From Macrophomina tecta (taxonomy: Eukaryota > Ascomycota > Dothideomycetes > Botryosphaeriales > Botryosphaeriaceae), in the NCBI GenBank assembly GCA_024180945.1, contig JAKSGN010000037.1, forward strand, positions 873,501 through 937,500: a stretch of DNA of 64,000 bases. Direction: 5' to 3'. Positions 1-59,009 of this stretch are shown here, piece after piece (positions within the stretch are counted from its first letter, which is position 1; every line of letters begins with the position of its first letter). The notes below the pieces were generated by a model. The model saw only the letters and a list, made by a program, of their open reading frames with translations. It searched no databases and was not told the DNA's origin. Made by a program: the position numbers and the translations under genes.

Positions 1-3000
1 GACAATACCGGCATGTACCAGCCGGTTACCCGGTGACATGCTCTTCTGCCTGGCCTGTGTGAGAAACTTTTGAAGGTCAATTCCGTGCAAAACTTCGGCG
101 TCTTCTTTGACAACGACCTGCAAGAAACCCCATCTTTCGCTTTGGACAACCCTGGTACGCAGCACAGGCGTCATGGCAACCAGATTCTTCCAGGCTGCTT
201 CTGCCTTCTCATCGTTCGGCACAGGAACAACGTATTCGGCAACATATGCGCCTTTCTCCACGTTCGACAGCGCCATGAGACCTTCCTGTAGGGGAGCGCA
301 GGGATACACGTCTTCAACGACAGCCTTTTCAAGTCCGCAAGTTACTGCTACTTCCTCCAATACTGCGTTGGTATCGCCTTCCAGGATGGAGAATGGCTGA
401 AGCATTGCGGAAGGAGTCGCATGCACCTCAGCATCCCTGGCGATCCGGGCCATGTCCGAGAGCGTCGGATTGTCGAAGATCTCTTTGACGGTGATGAGTA
501 TCCCACCCCTGCGGGCTGCGGCCACGAGCTTCATGGCATCCAGAGAATCTCCGCCGAGACGCAGAAAACTGTTGTGAGTTTCCACTTCGTCCAAGCCAAG
601 GACCATCTTCCACAACTCACCCAAGCGTCTCTCCATAGCGTTGCTTGAAGTGCTTTCCTTATGCGTCTTCATAACATTTTTCGGAAGCATACTTGCATTT
701 GGAGCCGTCTTATGTGCCGGCTGACGGTAGCTGACGCCTTGAGAAGCTGGGTCAGATAAGGAGCGGACTGGAAGGAACACGGTAGGGACCATAAACGACG
801 GCAAAGTCCGGCTGAGACGGTCTTGCGCTCCGGAAACCAGGGCGTCCAGGAGCTTCTTCGCGACCTCATCGTCCACGTACCCATGTCCCAACGCCACGAT
901 AGCGGCCAGTAATGCCTGGCTGGGGTTTTCAGGGGTTTCAATGACCTTGATCGCAACCTCTCTATCCCACAATGATTGGCTCACAAGTTTTTCAACGGCG
1001 GCGGCTGGGAACCGGCGTCCGTCTAACTCTAATAGCCTGCTCTGCTCGCCGATCGATCCCAGCTCTCCGGTTTTGCTTTCTCGGTTCGGCATTGCCTCTG
1101 CTACTGTCACAACGCCAATTGTATCGGCTGCGAGCAACTCGAGCACGCGCTCAAGCTCCCGCATCATTTGCCGCATCTGCAGTGGCTTGATCAACCTAGC
1201 ATCGTGCGTCGCAGTGAATAACGCAGAAGAGTCCGAGAACTCGCACTCCAGAAGGAGAGGATACGTGTGAAAATCCGCGGTGCCGCTCCCGACTAAGCGT
1301 GCTTTACTCAAGTCGAATGACAGATCTTGTTCCTGTTTCCTAGGGTGCATGGTCAACAGCGAGCGGAAGTCGCATGCTTCCTTGGCATCTTCGCTGACGC
1401 GCCTGATGCTCTGGAGGCCTCTGTGTGAGTGTGGGATGGCATTAGCACTTGCTATTTGGACGCGCTCCAGGATGCTGGCAAGAGTGTCTTGCGGCCTGAA
1501 GTGGACGCGTAGGGGGGCCGTGGTGACAGTAGGGCCGGGAATGCGGTCGATGTCGGGGACAGGGATGAGGCGACCTGACTGCACCAAGCCATATACTACG
1601 TCGTCAGAGCATGAAAATCTTGAGAGTACCAGGGCCCAGGCGGTCTGAATGAGTGCTGCAGTGGTCACACCGGCAGGCTTCTTTGTCAGAGATACACCAT
1701 GCGTGATCACGTTGTCTGCGCGTGGTTTGTAGTCCAAGGAATCGGCGAGTGGGAAGGGTACGGGTCGGGCACCCATCAGGCTGTCTCTCCAAAACCTGTC
1801 CGACTCTGCAGCTTCCAAATTGTGGAGGTAATCGATGTACCGGCTGAACGGTGGAGGTCTATCGAGGGTACTCCCAGCCAATATCTTGCTGATCGCCGCT
1901 GAGATAATACCGACCGTAGCACCGTCGTAAATGGCATGATGGGCAGTCCAAACGAATTGTACTCTTTCGCTGTCCATGATGAGGCCGTACCGGGAAAGAA
2001 TGTCTCCAAAACTCATTGGCTCGTTCCGGTCTCTCGTAACATATTCCTCCAGATTGGAGCCTGTGCCCCACTTAACTGAATCCTCTGAGTCCTTGATTAC
2101 CACCTGAAACATGCCCGTTGGCCCAAGGTGAACAACCCGGGTACGGAGGATAGGATGAGTTGCTACGACCGACTGCCACGCAGCTTTGAGTTGGTTCAAA
2201 CTCGCCCTCTGCAATTCGACAACCAGCCGCGCAACGTAAGATCCTGCCTGGGTATTGGAAGCCGCCATAAGGCCCTCCTGCAGAGGGGTGCAGGGGTACA
2301 TATCCTCAATATCGCCAACTCGCACCCCAATATCAGCGGCAGCCATATGGAGAACCTCATCAAGCGGAATGCTTCGAGGCATCAAAGAGAATGCCGCATC
2401 TTCTGTGGACCTAGTTGATGGCGCCTCCACACCAGTCATGCAAAGCGCCATCTCCCAAAGCGTGGGCTTGCCGAGGACGTCAACCACCTTCAGTGAAAAG
2501 CCTTCCCGCCTCACGATTCCGGAGAGTTGCATGGCTGTGATAGAATCCCCCCCGAGCCGGAGGAAGTCAGCATCCGCTCCGAGGGCCTCGGGATCGTCCA
2601 GCTCCAGGCATTCTGCCCATAGGTGCTTTAGCAGCATCTCCACTTCTGCTGATGCTCTCATCGGCAAATGTCCGCTTGGTGTTGCCTTTGCATTCGCTAC
2701 CACCGTATTCTCGAACTCCACAGGCTGAATGCAAATCTCTTCAACCGTCAGAGATGTAGTAGCTTCAAGCAGGCGTTGCACCGTCAGTTGAAACTGGCCC
2801 ATAAGATGCGTCACCTGAGACTGGCTCAGCACGCCAGAGGCATACGTGACATTGACATTGACCACCGCATCATCCACCTGCTCACAGACTACAGTCACCG
2901 GATAGCTGAATGACGACCCAGTATCAATCGCCTGCGAAGTGACCCCGTAGGCAGCTCCTACCGGCTGCGCTGGCTGCACAACGAACAAGCTTCCGAACGA

Positions 3001-6000
3001 ACAAGCGCGGGCCGCATCCGGGCCGAGCGCCTGGATGTTCTGTAGTCCTAGAGCCTCATGCGGGATCATCTCTGACGCCTGCTTCTGCATGCGCAGGAGT
3101 AGCTCGTGGATTCGGTCCCCTTTCTGGAAGGACACACGCACAGGGACCGCGGTGATGGTCGGCCCCATCACCTCTTCGATGCCATCCATCGGGGCGTTAC
3201 GGCCGCTAACGATGCTGCCGAAGACGACATCGGTGGCGCCGCCGCTGCAGGCAGCCATCACGAGTGCCCATGCCGCTTGTAAGGTTGTCGCGAGCGTGAC
3301 CTCGGCTCTAGCTCGCCGCGGGAGGCGTAAGTTGAAGTCCGCAATGCCGTCGATGGGCGCCGGTCTGGCCTGCGACGGTGGGAACGCCGGGGTTGGAGCA
3401 TCTTTCAAGTAAGTTCTCCAGAAGTCGGCGGCGGCACCTGAGTTGCGGATCTCGTTCAAGTGTTCCATGTACCTCCGGAAAGCCACGGGTTTCTTGGAGT
3501 CTGTCTTGCCGGTGTAGATATCGTGGACCCTCTGAAGGAGGAGATGTAGCGAATAGCCGTCATAGAGCGAGTGATGAGCCAGCCAGACGAATTTTCGGGA
3601 GCCCGTTTGCTTATCGTCAATGATTGCGACCTTGTTGAATAGGAAGGCAGACAAGTTTCTGGGCTGCTTCAAGTACTCTTGCAGGTTACTGCTCTGTTCC
3701 CAGTCAACCTTCATCTGCTTCAGCATGGCCTGCATGGGCTTTGGTGGTTTCGTGTAAACAGTCTGGAAGAGTCGTGTGCGGAGAATTGGCTGCTCTTGGA
3801 CACACGTCTCCCAAGCGGCGCGGAAACGCTGAACGTCGAACTTTGAATCCCTGGGGAGCTCAACAACATGCTGAGCCGTATACGCAAGCGGATTTTTGGC
3901 GGATTCGATCATGAACGCTTCTTGAAGTGGGGTCGCCGGGTATATATCTTCAATTTCCGCCACAGAGTTCACATGGAGTGCCATGGCAGCCTCTGTCCGC
4001 ATTGAATTAGCAAGATCACCGACAAGTTCGAAGGGCTTGAACTGTGTCCTCCCAGCAGTCTTTTCATCTATGGGCGTCATCGTTTTTGCCATGTCGCTCA
4101 GTACGGGGTGGCGCAGGACTGATGAAACTGATAGGTGCATGCCCTCTGCTCTTGCAGCAGCAACCAGTTTCATGGCGAGGAAGGAATCTCCGCCAAGATA
4201 GAAGAAATTGTCGCCCAGCTGAATCTGCGAGATTTGGACGTTCAAAACGAGCGCAAGCATGGACTGGAGCTTCCGTTCATTCTCCGTCTCCGCAGGGCGG
4301 CCCTCACCCCGGGCTGCTCGCTGCTCACTCCCCAGTCTTCCCGCAATCGTCCGCAGCGCTTTCCGGTCCAGCTTCCCAGAAGGCATGCGTGGAAAAGGTT
4401 CCTTTACCGGCAGAATATTCGAAGGCACCATGAACCTGGGCAGCTTCTGCGGGAGCTCCGCCTCAAGCAATGCCACCACACTCGCAACGTTCTCATCCGG
4501 CGCGCCCATCATCTCCACGAGCAGCACGAGCTTCGAATCGACAACCTCAGCCGCAAACGACGCAGTCTTACCGAGCACCAGAGCAGCCTTATGTTCAACC
4601 TCGGCCAACTCCACGCGCTGCCCTCTGATCTTGACCTGCGTGTCCTTCCGGCCCACGAATTGCAGGCTGCCATCCTTCTTGAACCTCACCAAATCGCCCG
4701 TACGATAGAAGCGCCGCAGGCGTGACGGCTCCAGCCAATCGCGACGCGTCACAAACGCCTTCGCCGTCTGCGCCTCGTTATTGAGATATCCGCGCGCGAC
4801 GCTGGGGCCGTCGAGCCACAGCTCACCAGCCGCGCCAACCGGCAGGAGCCGCTCCGTCTCCGGGTCCACGACCCAAGGCCTGCAGCAGAAGCTGTTTCCA
4901 ATCGACAAGCGGTCCGAGTCGGGCGTGACGTCGACCTGGAAGGTGGCGTAGACGGCGGTCTCGGTGGGGCCGTACGCCTCGATCAGGCGGACGGCGGGCG
5001 CCCAGGTGGCGAAGACGTCCTGCGGGATGACCTCGCCGCCGGTGACGACGGTGCGGATACTGGGCACGTCCTCCGGCGCCATGATGCTGAGCATCGTCGG
5101 CGTCATGAACATAACGGTGGCGCCGAGGCGGCCGATGGCGCCGCTAATGTCGTTCATGCGCTGCTCTTCGGACATCTGGCACACGCAGCCGCCGGACGTG
5201 AGCGTGCTCCAGATCTCGAAAATGCTGGCGTCGAAGGTGTAGGCGGAGAACTGGAGGACGCGGGAGGTGGAGTCCAGCTGGAGGATGGGCGAGTATCTGG
5301 TGGAGCTAGCCAGGAATTGCGAGTGCTGCATCATGATTCCTTTAGGCGTGCCGGTGGAGCCTGAAGTGAAGAGGACGTATGCGAGATTTTCTGGGGTGAC
5401 GAGCTGTGGGATATCGCGTTCTGGGAGACGGCTGACGAAGGTAGGCGAGACGACAATCTGTTGGACGTGCTCCTGAAGCCGGAGAGCCGTCTTAGGTGAA
5501 GCAATCACAATGCTAGCTGAAGCGTCGTCGAGGAGCTGCAATAGGCGAGCGAGCGGAGCTTCTGGGTCAAACGGGACGAACGCGCCGCCAGCCTTGAGTA
5601 CAGACAGCATGGCAACGGTCGCCCAAGCAGACTTTTCCATACAGACAGGAACAAGCTCCTCCGGGCGGACACCGAGGTTGTAGAGGTGGGCAGCCAACCT
5701 CGATGAAAGTTTGTCCAACTCGGCGTAGGTTAGTCTGCCATCCCATGCGTCAATAGCAAGACGGCCTGGGTGCTCTCTGGTAACACGCTCGATGAGATGA
5801 TGGATGCAGCTGTCGACCGGAGAAGTTGCTTCCAGTCGCGAATTCCAGTGGCTCAATGTACCACTGTCTCTTTCGCTGACCACTTCAAGGTCCTGAATAG
5901 TGGAGTTTGGTGTCTCAATCACACTCCGCAGGACCCTAGAAACGGTTTCCGCAATGTTTTCCGCTTGGAAGGGCGAGACCTTCGACGTCAGGTACTCGAT

Positions 6001-9000
6001 AACAAGCTCGAGAGAGTTTTCAGTGACGTATCCAAGGAAGGTCACAGCAAACTCAGTGGGATCCATTTCGTGCGTCAGTCGAATGACGATCTCATTGTCG
6101 GTCGGAGTGGAAGATTTGTGCTGCAGCGACATAGCAGTGTCGAAAAGACCTTCCCGAGCTGCGTCCACCATGTCTGTAGCATGCATTACCTCTGCCAAAG
6201 GACATTCTCTGTGTGAGATCTGCTCAATACTATCATCTTGCATTGACTTCAGAACGTCCCACACGGTCGAGGATGAAGGCAGTCGGGAAACGCAGGGCTG
6301 AATATTCGTAAAAACGCCGAGCGTCTGCCCGTACTCCTCGTCCCGACCACTGCTCAAATATCCGAATACCGGACTCTCAGAACCGGTGTATGATCGCAGA
6401 ACAAGACCCCAAACGGCTTTGAGCAGATCTGATATAGTGATTCCAAGGCTCTGACAAAAGGACTTGACTTTGTGCAGGTTGAATTCGGGCATGCTCGTAA
6501 ACTCAAGACTGCCGTCTGAAATATCACTCCACTGAGGAACATGACAAGGCATTATTCCGGCAAGATGGCGCTTCCAATATTCAACAGACCCTTCATGAGA
6601 CGTCGTTGAGATGTGCTTGATATAGTTGCTGTAAAGAGGACGTGGAGCGCTCCTCAAGACATCGAGATTCTCGTACGCTCTCTGAAGATCAAGCATGAGC
6701 GCTTTGGTTGAGCTGCCATCGATGAGAACATGGCTGACATTCAACTGCAAGACCGCATGGCCGGGCGACTGCAGCTTCACAAACAATTGATGCTCAGGCT
6801 GACTCGGAGTCCACGAAAGGTCGAGAGGCGGGCCATCCAGCTGACCCTCAACATAGGTTATCCCAGCTCGAGAATGACGCAACACAACCTGGTCAAATGT
6901 GCCATCCGCCCGGATACTTTCAACGAAAACAGTCCTCAGTACAGCATGACGGTCCACCAGCGCCTGCCATGCTTGCTCGAGCTTTTGTAGGTCAATTGCT
7001 CCGTGCCTCTGCTGTACGTCGAGAAAAAGTTGTGAGATGTAGCTACCCCGTTGACCGGCACGGCTGAGCAGCATTCCGTTCTGCATCGGGGAACATGGGT
7101 ACATATCCTCAACATCCTCGATCCGGAGTCCGATCCTTGGCAGTATGTTGTCCGCGAGCCGTGCCGCTTCCGCGGAAGATGCACGTAGAAGTGGAAACTC
7201 AGGTCTAATGTGGTGGAGCTGGGACGACATGGTGCCAAGTACCTGCCGACATTCCTGCATCCACAGGCGAATGCGGTCCAGATGTCTCATGCGCCGATTG
7301 TAGGTGAATGAGAGCTTGATGTGTCCGCGCTCAACGTTACCCAGAATTTCGACGAGCCCGAAACGGGGGAGTGTTTCGCCAAACCCGTCAAGGTTCATGA
7401 GAGTTCGTTCAGGGATCTCTGAAAAGAGGCTTCCAGGGCGCTCCAGCTGTTGATACATGCCTGCGTAGTTGAAAGTCACTTCCATCGGGGTCTCTGCGCT
7501 GGCCGACGAGCCCTTATTACGCTGGTAGTACCTCGATGCGAAGTATGCCAGGCCTTTGTCTGGGAATTTTGCTCGGAGCGCTCTTATTTCACGTAGAGCA
7601 TCAACGGAGCTACTGCAACTGTGTTGTGAGAGGACCAAGGGGAGGATGGTCGTGAACCAACCCACTGTTGAAGAAAGATCAATCGCATCATCCCATGGTT
7701 CTCGCCCATGGCCTTCAACAAAAACCGCTGGTATTGGCCTTTCGGGAAACACGTTGTGAAAGGCGAGCATACATGCTGACAGGAGAACGTCCACTGCTTC
7801 GGCTTCCAGTGGGCCACTCGAGGCGGCTCCCAGTATCGCCGAGGAAAGCTCCTTGTCCAGCACCACAACTTCTGTGTCCGAATCCCCATAAACATTGGGT
7901 AGATCTGACATCCCCCAAAATGACATTTTTGATTCTGGTAATTGGAAGGGCAACTCTTGCGGTGGGAGTCTCCGTACGTAACTCTGCTGGGCTTTGCACC
8001 ATTTCTGGAACGAGTAACTCGGGGGTGCAGATATTGTTCCAGTCTGCAAATGCTCCTCAATTTGTCCCAAAATAGCGCGGAAAGAGACAAAGTCGGTGAC
8101 AAGGTGGTGTGCGCAAACGAACAGAAGCTGGTCCCGTCCTTCTCGGATATTGAAAAGGTCGGCGTGAATGAGCGGTCCGAGCCTAATGTCCAGACTCCGC
8201 TGTGACTGACCAATGATTTGCATAACCTCTTCAGACTGCTCTGAAACAGCATGAGAGGATATACCGTACGACTCTACAGTGTCCTCCGAGATGTACTGAA
8301 ACCACTTCCCTTGCTTCAACTCGAAAAACCGAGCTCGCAGCATGGGATTCCTGGAGACAACCGCCTCCAATGATTTTTCCAGCGAGATGTGCGAGATGTT
8401 TCGGTTCAGTCGCAAAAGGAAACTGATGTTATCGCGATTATCGCCTTCTGGTTTAAGATGAAAGAAAAGGCGCTGGATCGGTGACAAACTGAACGGTGCC
8501 TCCAAGTCTTCTTCTTCTTCCTCGGCATCTGCTTGTACTGCCCTTGCCGGGGTTGAGAGCCCATCAGCAGCCAATCCAGACGCTATTGCTTCGATGGTCT
8601 TCTGCTGGAGGATTCGTTGCATAGCGATTCGTAAGCCGCGTGCCGCAGCCTGCGAGACCACTTGCATCGCAGAGATAGAATCTCCGCCAAGGCTCTGGAA
8701 CACACTAGTGCGGTCGATGTTCTCTGCAGGTACGTTCAGAACCTTGCTCCAAATCTGGCGGATTTCTTCTTCAACCTGGCCAAGACCCGTGCTTGGGGAA
8801 GTGTGAGCCTGCCTTGGGACTTTCCCTGCGGATAGCCGAGTCTCGCCCAGTGCACGGAGGCTCTTCCGATCAATCTTCCCATTAATAGAGATTGGGACAT
8901 GCTCAATGGCCTGGTACGATGCTGGTATCATGAAGCTTGGAAGAATGTCCCGGACTTTCGTCTCCGCGGCTGCCATTTCCTTTTCTAGCAGTTGCTGGGC

Positions 9001-10770
9001 GGCAGCCTCGTCCCCATTCCAATCACGGCCGATTGCCACAAAGGCCACTAAAGTTCCACGCGTACCGGTCTTGGTCTTTCTTTTCACAAGCTCCACAACA
9101 ATATCTCGGGAAGCGTTCATTGCAAGCTTGAACTGATGCTCAATCTCGCCGACCTCAATCCTCTGGCCATTCACCTTGACCTGCTCATCTTTGCGACCGG
9201 CAAAGGTAAAACTTCCGTCTTCTTCCTGGATGACGAGATCTCCGGTCCGGTAAAAGCGAAGGGCCCGGGCATCCGACTCTGCCGGGAAGAGTCGAGTATG
9301 CCAGATGGGTCTGCGTATGAAGACTGCGGCCGTCTTCTCCGGCTCATTGAGATAACCTCGTCCCACGTGCGGTCCCTCCACAAGCAGCTCACCAATCTCT
9401 CCCGGCGGAGTTCTCTTGTTCGCGTCTTCGGGGTCCACTACCCAGCAACGTCCTGCCACTGCTGTGCCGATGCTCTTCCCCTGGGACCCTCTTGGTATCG
9501 GGGCGGTACATGTCGAGACAACCGAAGCTTCCTACAATCTCCGTTAGCCAGTGCTCTGTGACATGAAAGTGAAGGTTCAGGCGTGATCAGCAGATTTTAA
9601 GCGGACAAGGAAACTCGGCAGCGAAACCAGAGGAGCAAGATGCACGCAACGTCCAAATAGGCTCTCGGGATCAGCCCACCCCGAGCAACCCGTCCGTCCA
9701 CGCGCAAGGCACAGTCCCGCTCGCTCGTGCCCGCCAAGCACCCGACCTCCTACTTCATCGCCAATCCACGCCCACCCGATACGCATACGTACCACTTGCC
9801 CATACGCGTTCATCAGCGTCACCCTATCCGCCCACCTCTCCAGCAGCGCCTCCGGCATCGCCTCGCCCCCCTGCACCAACGTCCGCAGCCCTGCCAGCCC
9901 ATCATCCGCGACCGACGACAGCGCACTGATAAACGACGCCGTCAGTAGCGCGTAGTTCGCGCGCATGCTCTTCACCGCGGAAGCGAACGCGCCCGGATCC
10001 AGCCGCTCGCTCTCTCCGACCACGCACACGGCGCCGCCGACAACCAGCGTCGTCAGCATCTCGGTGATGGCGGCGTCGAAGTTGTATGACGCGAACTGCA
10101 CGGCGCGCGTGCGCGCGTCCATGCCCATCGCCGCGGCGTGGCCCGTCGCGCCGGCGCAGAAGGAGCCGTGCTCGATGACGGCGCCCTTGGGCTGCCCGGT
10201 GCTGCCGCTGGTGTAGACGATGTAGGCGGCGTTGGAGGGGGTTGCAGTTTGTGTTGGGCCGTGAGCGCTTGGCGGGAGGGCGGCGAGGGCGGGGGCGTCG
10301 AGGGGGAGGGCAGTGCGGAGCAGTTGGGAGATGCGGTGGTGGGAGGCGCGCGAGGTGATGGCGATCGTGGCGCTGCATTTGCTGATTATGCTTTCCAGGC
10401 GGTCGGTGGGGTGTGCCGGGTCGAGGAGGACGAAGGCGCCGCCGGCTTTGAGGACGGCAACGGCGGCGATTGCTGTTTTTTCGGGGAGAAAGTTTCAGTT
10501 GGGGCGGCTGCATGTTGGTTGTTGTGCTGCTTTACCTGTCCATATTGACTTCTCGAAGCACAGCGGAACGATCACCTCTGGGCCGACTCCAAGAGCAACC
10601 AGCTTGGTTGCGATGCGGCGTGAAGCATCGCCGAGAGCTCGGTAGGAGATGGATTGGCCGTCCGATGAGCAGATTGCTTCTGCATCGGGACGGATCTGGC
10701 AGTGTTCATCAATCAACTCGGTGATCAGATAGTCGTGGATCGGCGGCTGCCGTCTGGTAGATGCCTTCAT
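1..10770 (-). CDS. Non-ribosomal peptide synthetase, A-T-E-C-A-T-C-T-C-(A remnant)-T-C, 3' end missing
   Basis: Multimodular cytosolic synthetase that activates, epimerises and condenses amino acids. The start is ATG at 10770; exons are 10536-10770, about 9790-10472 and about 9564-1, and the frame is still open at base 1. Core motifs seen: A1 TSGSTG near 10190-10224; T1 LGGDS near 8680; epimerase HHLVTD near 8100 with an NYAG motif; condensation SHVLIDG near 6720; A2 TSGSTG near 5360 and AYGPTE near 4965; T2 LGGDS near 4190; condensation HHSLYDG near 3565; T3 LGGDS near 2550; condensation HHAIYDG near 1930; adenylation C-terminal remnant about 700-1080; T4 LGGDS near 557; start of a further condensation domain at 1-310. 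Two adenylation domains serve four carriers. The T-C-T-C tail recalls fungal siderophore-type synthetases, but similar tails occur elsewhere, so the product is not predicted. One residue is probably delivered in D form, because E follows module 1. It is divergent from the ABC exporter gene. Confidence 0.93.
9565..9791 (-). other. Putative long NRPS intron inside adenylation motif A5 (about 225 nt)
   Basis: The frame reads well up to NAYGQ and again from HWLTEIVGS; the sequence between is GC-rich and is not adenylation-like. Candidate donors are GTGGTA, GTACGT and GTATGC near 9780-9791; candidate acceptors are CACAG and CAGAG near 9565-9568. None gives a canonical GPTE at motif A5. The exact ends are uncertain. 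Confidence 0.45.
10473..10535 (-). other. NRPS intron 1 (63 nt)
   Basis: A GTAAAG donor and an AACAG acceptor join the upstream sequence ending KSIWT to IAAVAVLKAGG. This restores the first adenylation core (A1/A2 motif region) in frame. Without splicing the frame is lost. Confidence 0.85.
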
Positions 10771-12132
10771 TGCGGCTGCCTAGGATCACAAAAAGACAGA
10801 AAATTCAGTTATTGATAAAGATATTATGGAGTACTGAGGGCACGAACGAGCTGCTGCCGCCAGGGAAGTACGAGGAGCCTAGCTTTTTGTATTGACTACA
10901 TAGCACTGTCCATTGGCCGCAATGCCAGCCCCCAAAGTCTCAAGAAATTTTGAGTCTGGAATGCAAAAGCAGGAACCAATTTTGGACGCGAGGACGGAGC
11001 CGCAGATTGGATCGGGCAAGCCTGATTTGCACAAAGCCAGGATTCAACCCTGATACGTGCATTCGTTGTTCAGCAATGGGACATCAAGAAGGCCGAGGAG
11101 TTCCAGAACCGAATTCCGGGCCATGATCGCGTAGCTATGTGGGCCATCACTGCAGATGAGTCCACCAAAAAAAATAAAAATAAAAAAAAACCGGTGATGA
11201 GCGCCAGACGGACTCGGATCATCAGTCAGTCTGCTGTTCTCACAAGATTGTACCTGGTCATGCAGAAAATAAAAGCACCAATGATCTGATGTCTGCACAG
11301 GTGATCTTCATTCGCCGACAAATAAGGCAACCTTGGCATCCTTGCTGTAGTTCTTGAGTGCCAACAACAGCCCGTCCGAGCGTTGCTGCCATGAACAGAT
11401 TATGCTTGGGTGAAAGTCTGGCCTACCGTGTTATCCGGACGCCAGGGCATACTCGCCGACGAATCTGGTGAGGAATTTGCTGATCTGCACGTCAGCGGCT
11501 TCATTGTGGCATCGTCCATGGTCAGGTTCACTGGATGGACTTTCAGTGTGCCTACACAGAACGGATTTCGGCTGTGGATATAGCCGTTGAACCATGTCTT
11601 AACAATCTGCACAATTTGAGACGGCGCACTGTCTTGCATCGGGGGTTGATCAGGAGCTACCCAAACGGGATTGCCGCTGCCTCAAGCATCCCAGAATAGA
11701 AAACAGACCATGGCCACGTTCCTATTCTGGAGCAATGAGGCTTTGGCGGATACGAGAGTGCAACTCCGCTTCAAGGCCATTACTAGGCCATGGACGCCTG
11801 TGAGTCGCATTGGGAGGCAAGTTCCATCGTGCCTCAACGCCAGGCCCGAAACCCCGAGACCCCACAGCTGGGGTGGCCGACGCTCAGCTCGCCTTGCGTT
11901 TGCCGCGCCCCGTAGCGCACATCCCGTACGGTTAAGCATTGCAGCAGAATGAAGCAGTCTAGAGCAAGCCAAGCTCGGATGCATCAGCTTCCGCTGCCGA
12001 GCCCCTGTGGGTTGCGGTGAAAAATTCGTGCTGGGGTGCTGCGTTTGCCGCCTACAAGACTTAACTCGTTGCCGTGATTCGCAGACAGGATCACTTTGGC
12101 GCAAGAAGCCTTCTTTGTTGCCCTCTCTCGCC
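10771..12132. promoter_or_regulatory. Shared intergenic region between divergent NRPS and ABC exporter genes
   Basis: 1.36 kb lie between the NRPS start on the minus strand and the ABC start on the plus strand. No protein-like frame or RNA gene was recognised. It holds an A-rich tract (11163-11190). The head-to-head layout suggests joint control, but I could not assign a factor-binding motif. Confidence 0.5.
11163..11190 (+). repeat. A-rich low-complexity tract
   Basis: Runs of A broken by single T residues in the NRPS/ABC intergenic region. It may be a nucleosome-depleting promoter tract; no other role is visible. Confidence 0.6.
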
Positions 12133-15100
12133 ATGCCCAGCAGCACGGAAAAATTCGAAACCGGACCAGCGGAAGGCTCAGCTGTCCTCGGCGAGCCACA
12201 ACGGGGTGGACCGGAATGCCGGGAGGAAGGTGCAGTAGACCAGAACGGCAATAATGGTGCTCTGGTGCTGGTATGGAAACGCCTTCTTCCATCATCTTCA
12301 CGCATGAGGCTAATACATTCTTCAATTGTAGCTCTATGGTGCAGCTAGTCGTGTGGACGTGCTTGTGGTCTCCGCATCGCTTGTTTCGGCCGTGATAGGC
12401 GGTGCTCTGATGCCTTTGATGGTACGTTGGACAGCGCATCGGGAGAGCGGAGTGTTAACCAAGATTTTGCTGTAGACCATCGTGTTCGGCAAGATGACCG
12501 GGGAGTTCCAAGGCATCACATCGTCCCATGAAAACGGAAGCGAGGCCAACAGTCAGCTGGACCAGTTCACCCTGTACTTCGTGTATCTCGCAATTGCAGA
12601 GTTCGTCACGGTCTACATCACCACGGTCGGGCTGGCAGTTGCCGGAGAACGCATAACATGCCGAGTGCGGTAAGTGGCATGACTAGCATATCCTCCTGTG
12701 GGCCACGCCTGACATGAGGAATTTTGCCAGCGAACACTACCTGTCCGCCGTTCTGGAGCAGGGCGTCGCCGTGCTCTCAGACAAGTCCAACGCGGTGGGC
12801 GAGGTGTCGACACACATCAGCAACGACGCCGAACTGATCAAGAACGCAGTGTCGGAGAAGCTTGGTCGTGCGGTTGGAGCTGTGTCAACGGTGGTGACAG
12901 CATTTGTCGTCGGCTTCGTGTTCTCCTGGAAACTGACTCTCGTGCTGAGCTCGACGCTGGTGGCCTTCGTCCTGGTCATCGGCGCCGCCTCGCAAGGCAT
13001 GGTCAAGTACGCAGGCATCAGCGCAGAAGCCGAGTCGGCGGCCGCGACGGTGGCAGCAGAAAGCCTCGGAGACATTCGGGGCAGTGTTGCCAACTGTGCG
13101 CAGGAAAAGCTGGGGCGCAAATACGAGGGGCGTCTGCTCGAGGCGCGCCGTCCAAGGGTGCTGGAAAAAGTTTTCGCGGCGGTGATGATGGCCGTGGTCA
13201 CCGGAGTCATGCTCCTTGCCTATGCGCTCGCGTTCTGGCAGGGCTCCCGGTTTCTGGTGGCAGGGGATTTGGCGCTGGCGGATGTGCTCATTGTCCTTCT
13301 CGGTACGTGTCTGGTCCACCATGAGTAAGTCGTTCCGCGGGTTAACACCACGCAGCGGTGCTATTGGGCACCGTGTCGCTGGGATTTGCGGGTCCACCTG
13401 TGCGGGCCGTCGGTGATGGCCTTGCTGCCGCTGCCAGGATCTGCCGGGCCATGGACCCACCGGCGCGCACCTCCCCTTGTGCTCGAGGAGGTGGCGTGGC
13501 ATTGGGCGACGTGCTGGGCCACGTCCAGTTCCAAAACGTCAGCTTCCGCTACCCCGGCCGGCCTGACATGCCTGTTCTTGACCAATTTGACCTCGATGTG
13601 GCGCCAGGCCGCACGACTGCGGTCGTGGGGCCGTCCGGATCGGGAAAGAGCACTCTCGTCAGCCTCCTGGAAAGATTTTATGAGCCCAGCGCCGGCCGCG
13701 TGTGTCTGGACGGCCAGCCGTTGCAATCGCTCGATCTCCAGTGGTTGAGGCGGCAGATCGCCCTGGTCGGCCAGGAGGCCATGCTCTTCGACGCCACCGT
13801 CTTCGAGAACATCAGCCATGGCCTGGTCGGCTCCAGGTACGAGAACGAGCCAGAGGAGGTGAGGCGGGAGATGGTCAGGCGGGCAGCGGAGATCGCGCAT
13901 GCGCACCCCTTCGTTTCTCTGCTCCCCGACCAATACGACACGCGCGTGGGCGAGCGGGGCGCGATGCTGTCAGGTACGTGGTCCAGTCTCGGGTACCTCG
14001 CCAATGCTGACGAATGGTTTTCAGGCGGACAGAAACAGCGCATCTCCATTGCCCGGGCCATTGTTTCCGACCCGAAAATCCTCTTGTTGGACGAGGCCAC
14101 TTCTGCACTCGACCCTGTTGCGGAGCAGTCCGTGCAGGCGGCGTTGCGGACCGCCATGCGTGGACGTACGAATCTCGTCATTGCGCACAGACTATCGACC
14201 ATCAGAGAGGCTGACTGCATTGCTGTGATGGGGAAAGGGCGTGTTGTCGAGCAGGGCACCTACGAGTCATTGGTCGAGAAGCGAGGGCATTTCTTCCGTC
14301 TCCTCGAGGCCCAGAGTCTGGCTGTGGAGGACGTTGGCAATGTCCAGGAGGGAAATGCTCTGCATCACGTGCCGACTGGGACAGGCAGCCTCGACGAGAA
14401 GGCAGCCACGAGCTGCCCTGGTAATGCCAAGACCGTGGCCGAAGTCGAGCCACCCTCCGGCGCGCTGATCTCCGCTCTCCGCACCAAAGACCGGCCTACG
14501 CTGCTGGCTGGCTTGCTGCTCTCTATCCTTCTCGGCTGTACCAGCACAGCTCAGTCGGTTATTCTGTCCGCAGTACGTCTGTCCTGTCTACTCACGACGC
14601 CCATATCCCCACTGACAGGATCATAACAGTGTATTGCCGCTTTCAGTAACAACGTCTACGATCATGCTCAGCTCCGACATGATGTCAACTTCTGGGCCGG
14701 AATGATGCTGATGCTCGCCTTTGTCGGCATCGCGATTCAGAGCGGACAAGGCATAGCAATGGCGTTTTGCTCGGAGAGACTGGTGAGGCGAGCCCGCACT
14801 GCGGTCTTCCAGCACCTCCTACGTCAGGACATGTCATTCTTCGACACAGCAGCTCATTCAGCCGGGTCTCTCAGCGTCCTGCTATCCTCCCGAACGGCCG
14901 ACCTGGAAGGGCTGAGTGGAAGCATGATGGGCATGCTGCTGGTCGGCGCGTCCACCCTCATCTCCGGCTTCGTCGTCGCCGTCGCCATCGGCTGGAAGCT
15001 CGGTCTCGTGTGCTCGGCCACAATGCCCCTTCTCCTCGCTGCAGGGCACCTCCGCATGTCGTTCCTGCAGGCAAATGAGCGCAGATCCGCAGAGTCTTAT

Positions 15101-16261
15101 GCGGCTGCTACAACATACGCCAGCGAGGCTGCCAGCTGCATACGTGTTGTTGCGTCATTCACACTGGAGAAGACGGTGCTTCGTCGGTTCCGCAACACCT
15201 TGATCTCCCAGGCTCGGGCCAACGCGGTCTCCACCGCAAAATCCTCTGTGTTTTTCGCGACCTCACAAGCTATGGTTTACTGCTCCTTCGCTCTCTGCTT
15301 CTGGTACGGCGGGAGGCTCATGGCGCGAGGCGAATACACGATGTTGCAGTTCTTCATCTGCTACTCGACGGTCATCTTCGGTGCCCAGTCCGCCGGCAGC
15401 ACCCTCTCAGTTGCCGCGGACAGAGCCAAAGCAACCAGTGCCGCACAGGCCCTGGAGTCTGTCATGAAGAGCAGGCCGCTGATCGATGTGGGCTCGGGTG
15501 AGCCACTTGACTCAGTGAGAGGCTCCATCGAACTACGTAATGTCCACTTCAGCTACCTGGCGCGGCAGGACCAACCTGCACTTACGGATGTCTCCCTATC
15601 CATCCAGCCTGGTCAGTTCGCCGCGCTTGTCGGTCCCAGTGGTAGCGGCAAGAGCACCGCTTTGGCCCTGCTCGAGCGCTTCTACGATCCCATGAGCGGT
15701 GCCGTGCTGCTCGATGGCCGTAACATCCGAGACCTGGACGTGTCTTCGCTGCGCAGCCGCATGGCACTGGTAAGCCAGGACACCGCGCTCTTCTCGGGCA
15801 CGGTACGCGACAACATCCTCCTGGGCGTTGCCGATGGCACTGTAAGCGACGAGGGCCTTCGGCAAGCCTGCAAAGCCGCCGCGCTGGAAGAGGTCGTGGC
15901 GTCGTTGCCAGAAGGCTTGGACACGTCCGTTGGCAGCAAGGGCGCCGCGCTGTCGGGAGGTCAGCGGCAGCGCATTGCCATCGCACGCGCTCTTGTTCGC
16001 GACCCGCGTATATTGCTACTCGATGAAGCGACGTCGGCGCTGGACTCGGCCTCGGAGCGGGTGGTCCAGGAGGCTTTGGCCCGAGCGGCGAACGGACGCA
16101 CCACGGTGGCTGTTGCGCATCGTCTGAGCACCATTCGCAATGCGGATGTCATTTTTGTGCTCGACCGCGGGGCCGTGGCGGAGGTTGGCAAGCATAATGA
16201 GCTACTTGCTAAGCAGGGTCTCTATGCCAGCATGGTTACGGCTCAGAGTCTTGGGATGTAA
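12133..16261 (+). CDS. ABCB/MDR-type full ABC exporter
   Basis: Plasma-membrane multidrug-type efflux pump, TMD-NBD-TMD-NBD, 1263 residues after splicing (family about 1250-1350). Exons: 12133-12270, 12332-12421, 12476-12669, 12731-13302, 13356-13973, 14025-14572, 14630-16261; introns are 51-61 nt and all phases agree. NBD1 has Walker A GPSGSGKS (near 13635), LSGGQKQRISIARA (rebuilt across the intron at 13974-14024) and LLLDEATSALD. NBD2 has GPSGSGKS (near 15640), LSGGQRQRIAIARA and LLLDEATSALD. Both H-loops (AHRLSTI) are present, so both sites look able to hydrolyse ATP. The ATG at 12133 is the start that splices in phase to the first membrane helix; the first 46 residues are hydrophilic. 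Its position divergent to the NRPS suggests export of, or self-protection from, the local product. That role is inference. Confidence 0.92.
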
Positions 16262-16721: not shown

Positions 16722-17199
16722 TTAAGTGCGACGCTCCTTGTAGCCTGAAAGAGGCTTCGTGAGATCCACCGCCTCATCCGTATCAACTTGCTCGGGGCTG
16801 TTAGCCATAGCATTGTAGGCTCGACGCTCTGTAACAAGGTCAAAATAGAACTCACATATGGTGCGTCACGATGGGGTGTTTAGCACCTTTATAGCCCGAG
16901 AGAGGCTTTGTAAGATCCACCGCCTCATCCGTGTCAACTTGCTCGGGGCTGTTAGCCATGGCATTGTATGCGCGGCGCTCTGTGACACTATTAAAATAAA
17001 ATTCAAATAAGGTGCCATCATGACGGCGATGTTTCGTACCCTTATATCCCGAGAGAGGCTTTGTAAGATCCACTGCCTCATCCGCGTCAACCTGCTCGGG
17101 GCTGGCGGCCATAGCGTTGTAGGCCCTCTTCTCCATGAGAACGGGAGAGGCAGAAGCGAGCATTCCAAGCGACAGGAGTAGGCCGTAAGAAATCTTCAT
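16722..17199 (-). CDS. Secreted three-repeat Kex2-type RiPP precursor peptide
   Basis: Candidate precursor of a ribosomally made cyclic peptide. Exons: 17040-17199, 16887-16979 and 16722-16828; 119 residues after splicing. Residues 1-18 form a signal peptide (ends ASAS). Three 31-residue repeats follow (26-56, 57-87, 88-118), each beginning AYNAMA and ending GYKERR. Dibasic sites are K24-R25, R55-R56, R86-R87 and R117-R118, followed by one Thr and the stop. Repeats 2 and 3 encode identical peptides but differ at 11 third-codon positions; repeat 1 differs by two residues (Ala for Asn, Ala for Thr). Exon 2 is exactly 93 nt, one repeat, with phase-1 introns on both sides, so copies can be added without frameshift. 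In known dikaritin pathways (ustiloxin, phomopsin, asperipin) such repeats are cut by Kex2 and cyclised through Tyr by UstYa-type (DUF3328) proteins; such a gene lies nearby. The core cannot be fixed from sequence; AYNAMA and SGYKE both carry a Tyr. A cell-wall or pheromone-like Kex2-processed repeat protein is the alternative. Confidence 0.85.
16829..16886 (-). other. Precursor intron 2 (58 nt) with weak donor
   Basis: It occupies the same place as intron 1 relative to the repeat, with a TTACAG acceptor but a non-consensus GTGCTA donor. If retained, the protein stops after repeat 2 (frame ends at 16852). Spliced, it continues in frame through repeat 3. Confidence 0.65.
16980..17039 (-). other. 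Precursor intron 1 (60 nt)
   Basis: GTACGA donor and GTCACAG acceptor. Splicing joins GYK to ERR, giving the same junction that is encoded without an intron at the end of repeat 3 (GYKERRT). The unspliced frame stays open, so a longer form with an odd linker is possible. Confidence 0.75.
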
Positions 17200-18883: not shown

Positions 18884-19904
18884 ATGATCCCCAAGTCCGA
18901 TTCCTCTTATTCACCGCTTCCAAGAACATCTATCTCCGACGATGGCGTCCAACTACCTATACGCTCTCAGAAAAGATACGAGTGGAACACAATTTGGAAG
19001 CTTTCCGTGCTTTTGCTTCTAACGGTTGCGAACATCTCATTGTTTGCTGGCTTTCACTCCTTGAAGACAATTGGCAGCGAAAGGATTGCCGCTCCTGAAG
19101 ACTTCGGTAACCTGAGCACCTTAAGCATTGGGGACGGGTACTTGTGCTAACGCAACCAAAATAGCATTGATTGAAGAGCTCCCAACAGTGTACAGGCGGT
19201 TCAACTGGTGGACAGAGTACTCTGACAAGAACACAACAGCTGTGGACGAAATGTGGGAGAAAATTTACCCCGCTCATGGCTTTATTGCAATGGATCGGGG
19301 CTGGGCTTTGGATAACCACTGGCCGGAATCGATGCATCTGCCCTCAGATGGCAGTAAGAACGTCTACCTTCTGGAAGCTTACCACATGCTCCACTGCCTG
19401 GTAGATCATCTCCGTTCAATTTATTCCTACAAGCACTAATACAATTCTACAGTATGTGATCCGCAAAACCTTCTGGGAAGCGGTGAACAGAGAAGAATAC
19501 ACCTTTAACCCGCCTCATTCTGGGCACTGCTTCGATGCCTTGCGCCAAGTAAGTAGTCTTTCGTCCGGAGAGGAGTTTCATCTTACACAGCCCAGTTTAT
19601 CGTGTGCAAAGCCGACAATACGCCGTTGTTTACATTTGGCCGTAACACCGCCGGCGACAAACAGTATCGCCAATGCAGAGACTGGAACGCCCTCCGCGAC
19701 TACGCTACCAAACACACTGCGTGTTACCGCGACTTCCCGAAAGACCTAACAAAGGAAGAAAGGGAACGATTCCCTCTTGGCGACCACTTCGGATATTGCG
19801 ATGATGGGGACGATGGCGTGGTTGTTGATGCTTCGAGAAAGATGACGGAGCTTACGCTTGAAGAGTTCGAGGCTGCCAACCATCATCCACATGTAGCCAT
19901 ATAG
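18884..19904 (+). CDS. UstYa/DUF3328-family RiPP oxidative cyclisation protein
   Basis: Membrane-anchored member of the UstYa family (DUF3328), implicated in Tyr-side-chain macrocyclisation of dikaritin RiPPs and in cyclochlorotine hydroxylation/chlorination. Exons: 18884-19106, 19165-19400, 19453-19548, 19596-19904; introns are 58, 52 and 47 nt with clear branch words; 287 residues, normal for the family. It has a cytosolic N-terminus, one membrane helix at about 37-58 (WKLSVLLLLTVAN), then the two diagnostic motifs: H148-x-x-H151-C152 (YHMLHCL) and H178-C179 (GHCFDALRQ), followed by IVCKADNTPLF and a CRDW motif. The C-terminus is an Asp/Glu-rich tail of about 50 residues beyond the CRDW region, longer than usual. 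The start lies in a CACAATGA context. It is divergent from the precursor gene and is the obvious modifying enzyme for it; that pairing is inference from position. Confidence 0.9.

Positions 19905-53813: not shown

Positions 53814-59009
<5,196 letters not shown>

Follow-up and report, generated by a model that had tools for sequence, protein, structure and literature searches.

A locus in the window, which is the whole 64,000-nucleotide stretch of Macrophomina tecta DNA analysed here, probably constitutes a two-gene fungal RiPP unit, made of a Kex2-processed repeat precursor (KEP) and a divergent gene for a UstYa-family oxidase. The features that back this reading are the signal-like leader, the KR or RR before each unit, the exon-per-unit layout, the constraint at the level of residues and the adjoining intact UstYa gene. 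Following the proposed route, the precursor with its signal-like leader would enter the secretory pathway, a Kex2-type protease would cut after KR or RR, and a carboxypeptidase would trim the basic ends. The membrane-anchored UstYa may oxidatively cross-link the unit at invariant Tyr2 (in AYxxMA) or Tyr27 (in PLxGY), and the secreted product would be a small modified peptide, about three copies per precursor. From the presence of UstYa we infer a cyclised product (-2 Da). UstYa-dependent peptides form a large class that is mostly unread, and the locus offers a compact test case for which conserved block is product and which is recognition part.

Precursor gene

The precursor is encoded on the minus strand and is composed of the following parts.

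16722..17199, minus strand: repeat precursor gene, 119 aa, with the start codon at 17199 and the final base of the stop codon at 16722
17125..17199, minus strand: leader, signal-like MKISYGLLLSLGMLASA followed by SPVLMEKR with the first dibasic site, by sequence reading
17040..17124, minus strand: unit 1, AYNAMAASPEQVDADEAVDLTKPLSGYK, with the opening base of the codon that follows
17039-16980, minus strand: intron 1, 60 nt, phase 1; its retention would cause neither a frameshift nor a stop
16887..16979, minus strand: middle exon of 93 nt, both ends in phase 1, with an ERR linker and unit 2 (AYNAMANSPEQVDTDEAVDLTKPLSGYK)
16886-16829, minus strand: intron 2, 58 nt, whose removal is needed to reach unit 3 in frame
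16722..16828, minus strand: last exon, with an ERR linker, unit 3 and ERR-T-stop, the intron being absent at the unit end

The three 31-residue units are near-identical, and the array closes with RR-T-stop. Their pattern is AYNAMAxSPEQVDxDEAVDLTKPLSGYKERR, or, with both variants written out, AYNAMA(A/N)SPEQVD(A/T)DEAVDLTKPLSGYKE. Tandem Repeats Finder detects the array at 16736-17124 with a period of 151. The initial annotation had placed a RiPP-type precursor with three 31-residue repeats and dibasic sites at 16722..17199. These coordinates are exact at both the start and the stop codon, the repeats are present after KR, RR and RR, and assignment to the KEP type is supported by the intact DUF3328/UstYa gene that adjoins the precursor, divergent and 1.7 kb off.

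No further copies of the precursor were found in the genome (54.1 Mb, 37 contigs): with E up to 10, just three matches were returned, all at this locus, in a search that scored two candidates and that a diverged copy could escape. The nearest UstYa paralogue (C1:78588-79256) shows 46-54% identity, and no second precursor copy was found in its 9.9 kb. Near this paralogue, at 6333-6743 on the plus strand of stretch L019, lies a short ORF with a signal but no repeats (MKSFVSTFLF...); it is possibly a single-copy precursor, or else an unrelated secreted protein.

UstYa gene and its surroundings

The recognised genes closest to the precursor are given below.

18884-19903, plus strand: UstYa/DUF3328 gene, 287 aa, four exons, with introns at 19107-19164, 19401-19452 and 19549-19595
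12687..16258, plus strand: ABC transporter, with Pfam matches in frames 13346-14623 and 14627-16258 and frame 12687-13325 by reading only
1-10779, minus strand: NRPS, truncated at the window edge, that contains five condensation stretches

The UstYa gene runs divergently from the precursor, whose start lies 1.7 kb away with no other recognised gene in between. Its spliced protein matches PF11807 with 85.4 bits over profile positions 7-220 of 220 and is intact; the whole-genome PF11807 scan caught only the last exon, at 25.1 bits. The protein possesses one membrane-helix-like stretch and two HxxHC motifs, HMLHC and HSGHC. The ABC transporter is a possible partner of the precursor/UstYa pair, and the UstYa might alternatively act for the NRPS on the left. 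To the right of the UstYa gene are found genes for a carboxylesterase, an MFS transporter, SARAF and PIG-X. Neither tyrosinase nor P450, methyltransferase or peptidase is among the Pfam matches listed for 30 open-frame entries (1-40081), which include three pieces of the UstYa gene and cover short frames and exons in part; the listed matches thus hold no tailoring candidate beyond UstYa. A piece of a YCF1/MRP-type ABC transporter, with YCF1 as its best solved relative, was observed at 55914-58694 on the minus strand.

Splicing and the exon-per-unit layout

Introns 1 and 2 are mutual copies, with 43 of 58 aligned bases identical and an alignment score of 23, where 500 shuffles reached at most 3; the duplication therefore took exon and intron together. 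Removal of intron 1 is not forced, since the intron is open in frame and its retention keeps the frame open. The length and phases of the middle exon are such that its skipping would preserve the frame as well. The end of the third unit, free of an intron, reads GYK-ERR directly, as in the joined form, and the homologous ORF P0002 (see below) reads GYK-EGR-AYNAMA in one uninterrupted open frame. Another homologue, P0001, is 20 residues longer at the corresponding place, as would be expected if an intron had been left unspliced. The end of unit 3 and P0002 support the two-intron model. Counting against it are the donor sites, GTACGA and GTGCTA, both of which we take to be weak relative to the usual fungal consensus.

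Relatives and conserved blocks

Four homologous ORFs, P0001 to P0004, were found among 5.8 billion proteins searched. P0001 was retrieved with the window protein alone as query (E 2.6e-12), P0002 and P0003 by one profile search and P0004 by a further profile search; such searches give earlier hits high scores by construction. P0003 starts with the signal-like MKSSYAILISFGSAALALP, followed by KP and then the unit. Viral and prokaryote contig collections gave 8 and 59 pattern matches, respectively, none confirmed by tblastn, a result of little weight in non-fungal collections.

Ten units were compared, three from the window gene and seven from the homologues; in three of them residues 1-4 are missing, and two extend no further than Tyr27. 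M5, A6, S8-Q11 (SPEQ), D19, L20, P23, L24, G26 and Y27 are invariant in all ten, M5 being the called start in three ORFs, and A1 and Y2 are identical in the seven units where they are visible. For the candidate cross-linking residues, this means Tyr27 in 10/10 units and Tyr2 in 7/7. Positions 3, 4, 7, 12-18, 21, 22 and 25 vary across the relatives, and both residues that vary inside the window gene (7 and 14) sit at such positions. Judged by sequence, the unit has a conserved block on either side, AYxxMAxSPEQ and DLxxPLxGY, and between them a spacer that varies and is mostly acidic. It is possible, if doubtful, that the whole 27-residue AY...GY is the product, with the blocks joined by UstYa at Tyr2 or Tyr27 around the spacer and with splicing setting the number of peptides per precursor. 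To our knowledge, such a product, if true, would exceed every other UstYa-made peptide in length.

In P0002 and P0004 the ORF terminates right after GY (...QGY), which suggests, if these are true stops, that K-E-x-R belongs to the linker and lies outside the product. The same ends would fit a linear peptide, and on a further reading, which we hold to be quite unlikely, each unit leaves the cell unmodified, as a linear peptide of some 27-29 residues resembling a pheromone or signal, and the UstYa is part of the NRPS cluster next to it. Constraint that extends over two blocks across the whole unit, beyond a short core, speaks for such peptides, as does the NRPS at 1-10779; moreover, in the KEP survey DUF3328 genes lie near 22% of the 7878 KEPs counted and so are absent for most (Umemura 2020, PMC7329392). 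Against this, the UstYa gene directly follows the precursor as the next recognised gene and is divergent from it, and the ABC transporter lies between the NRPS and the pair.

The linker in the relatives is not dibasic: it reads EHR in P0001 and EGR in P0002 and P0004, and KP stands before the P0003 unit. These linkers count against the two-gene reading, as do the constraint over two blocks with no single short core, the weak splice donors, the lack of a tailoring candidate beyond UstYa among the Pfam matches listed, the chance that the UstYa acts for the NRPS, and the 12 of 16 other UstYa stretches that gave no KR-punctuated array in scans able to overlook intron-split ones. The linkers would also suit a secreted repeat protein that is active without being cut and whose basic linkers are incidental. 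Such a protein is very improbable, given KR or RR before all three window units and RR after the last, the KR punctuation of four other arrays near UstYa matches, and the persistence of the KxxR form, with its lysine four before the cut, wherever the linker is visible in the relatives (in P0001, after inferred splicing).

Relation to known systems

The two-gene locus resembles the KEPs of PMC7329392 in its signal-like leader, its KR/RR-punctuated tandem units, a nearby UstYa/DUF3328 gene and Tyr in the unit. According to that survey, Tyr is present in 65.6% of repeats with DUF3328 neighbours versus 38.2% of those without (Umemura 2020, PMC7329392). The unit sequence was not met in the literature matches listed, the figure logos and supplements of PMC7329392 lying outside that search, and it may already sit among the 838 types or 2560 stand-alone KEPs of that paper. 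No title on the exon-per-unit layout or on silent divergence in KEPs was found among the literature matches listed, which are not exhaustive.

GigA, the epichloecyclin precursor, has imperfect 27-residue repeats, and the gigA cluster comprises four genes including those for a DUF3328 protein and a kexin (PMC7317419, PMC9233826). The window locus is similar in its repeats, its DUF3328 gene and its small cluster, a likeness by description. No kexin-type match is among those listed here for the 30 open frames scanned. With the dikaritins (ustiloxin, phomopsin and asperipin-2a), also compared by description only, it shares a repeat precursor and a UstYa. Asperipin-2a has just one DUF3328 gene, whereas ustiloxin and phomopsin also need a tyrosinase, and known dikaritin cores are short (PMC7329392, PMC9233826). 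By contrast, the window unit has two conserved blocks flanking a variable spacer, and no tyrosinase match is listed for the 30 open frames scanned, short exons being covered in part. The ustiloxin/phomopsin subgroup has a YxIx core, which is absent from the window and homologue units; these read YNAM, YDAM or YNSM, and GYK. By analogy, the precursor looks as if it works like the epichloecyclin and dikaritin systems, and would be new within the KEP type and no new kind of system.

Other KEP arrays near UstYa matches

There are 33 PF11807 matches in the genome, one of which is the window's. The remaining 32 were covered by 16 stretches of 9.9 kb, scanned for repeated words and tandem arrays, and KR-punctuated arrays were found in four of them.

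L005, 1-285: array of unit PAYVWASAGKEKR, units ending in GKEKR
L010, 7596 downward, minus strand: array of unit GLGDDLSTDYIFTDDGSHEKVDQKR, units ending in KVDQKR
L013, 37-458: array of unit EPEYVWGGQKDKR, units ending in GQKDKR
L016, 6541-6767: array of unit ESIADRLLKYGDAEKR, units ending in DAEKR

The L005 array meets the edge of its stretch and may be longer. The other 12 of the 16 stretches gave no such array in this frame-wise scan, which can overlook intron-split ones. Scans that stay in one frame overlook intron-split precursors in general, and the one used here missed the window gene itself.

Units split at the linker are found in two of the five KEPs of this genome, the window gene and L010 as modelled, and their unit sequences are unrelated. 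L010 is modelled with seven units, with introns directly before DQKR at two early joints and later joints without; for its first intron, the sole AG in the 40-89 bases examined serves as acceptor. The window gene is thus like L010 in carrying introns just before the Kex2 site at early joints and a UstYa match nearby, and unlike it in unit sequence (by eye) and in that L010, as modelled, has one GC donor. This donor, GCACGT, belongs to modelled intron 2 of L010 (54 nt), an apparent GC-AG intron located directly before the Kex2 linker.

Divergence between units

Between units 2 and 3, 10 codons are changed, always silently and at the third position; 8 of the changes are transitions, and no residue is altered (S 20.8, N 72.2; dS about 0.77, dN 0). 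The silent-only divergence reported in the initial annotation is thereby confirmed, with the count corrected from 11 codons to 10. Compared with units 2 and 3, unit 1 shows two residue changes (positions 7 and 14) as well as silent ones. Summed over the three pairs, 32 of 63.0 silent sites and 6 of 216.0 replacement sites are changed (pS/pN 0.508/0.028).

When 10 substitutions were placed at random in the 93-base unit, with the observed transition/transversion make-up kept, one of 200,000 trials left the residues unchanged. Since conversion would not spare silent differences either, the peptide is under constraint, and the earlier view that the pattern goes beyond chance or recent duplication and marks purifying selection on the encoded peptide holds. 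The homologues likewise show no free drift; their units do change residues, so that the peptide is not preserved whole. A non-functional array, or a likeness due to recent duplication or gene conversion, for which the tandem arrangement with its intron copies could be cited, is hardly credible in the face of a dS of about 0.77 with dN 0, the single matching placement in 200,000, and the erasure of silent differences as well that conversion would bring.

The same measure was applied to the four other arrays, which were divided at each [KR]R regardless of residue pattern; five units and a one-residue end piece were compared in L005, seven units in L010, nine in L013 and five in L016. All four are silent-dominated, with pS/pN of 0.669/0.024 (L005), 0.839/0.041 (L010), 0.323/0.014 (L013) and 0.615/0.133 (L016), the last less so. 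Pairs that carry replacements include 1-2 in L005; 1-2, 2-3 and 3-4 in L010; and 4-5 and 5-6 in L013. Silent-dominated unit divergence is the usual signal for these precursors, weaker in L016; the pattern singled out in the initial annotation is real and is nothing special to the window gene. Shared as it is with four arrays of the same genome, it could help to find such precursors. The last L013 unit contains an in-frame stop in the frame shown, and this stop codon was omitted from the pS/pN count.

Excess silent divergence, in the sense of selection for a DNA-level difference between repeats, was also considered and is unsupported by the codon-usage comparison. Silent codon differences in the window gene (0.372) are below the expectation from genome codon usage (0.630) and not above that from its own usage (0.451). 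For the four other KEPs, where only units fitting the residue pattern were taken (5, 5, 8 and 2 units), none exceeds the genome codon-usage expectation, and the nearest to an excess over own usage is L010 (P 0.065). The silent divergence lies within codon-usage expectation and therefore requires no special mechanism. Of 21 silent sites, 10 differ between units 1 and 2; for the introns the figure is 15 of 58 aligned bases, and the two proportions are not significantly different (Fisher P 0.099).
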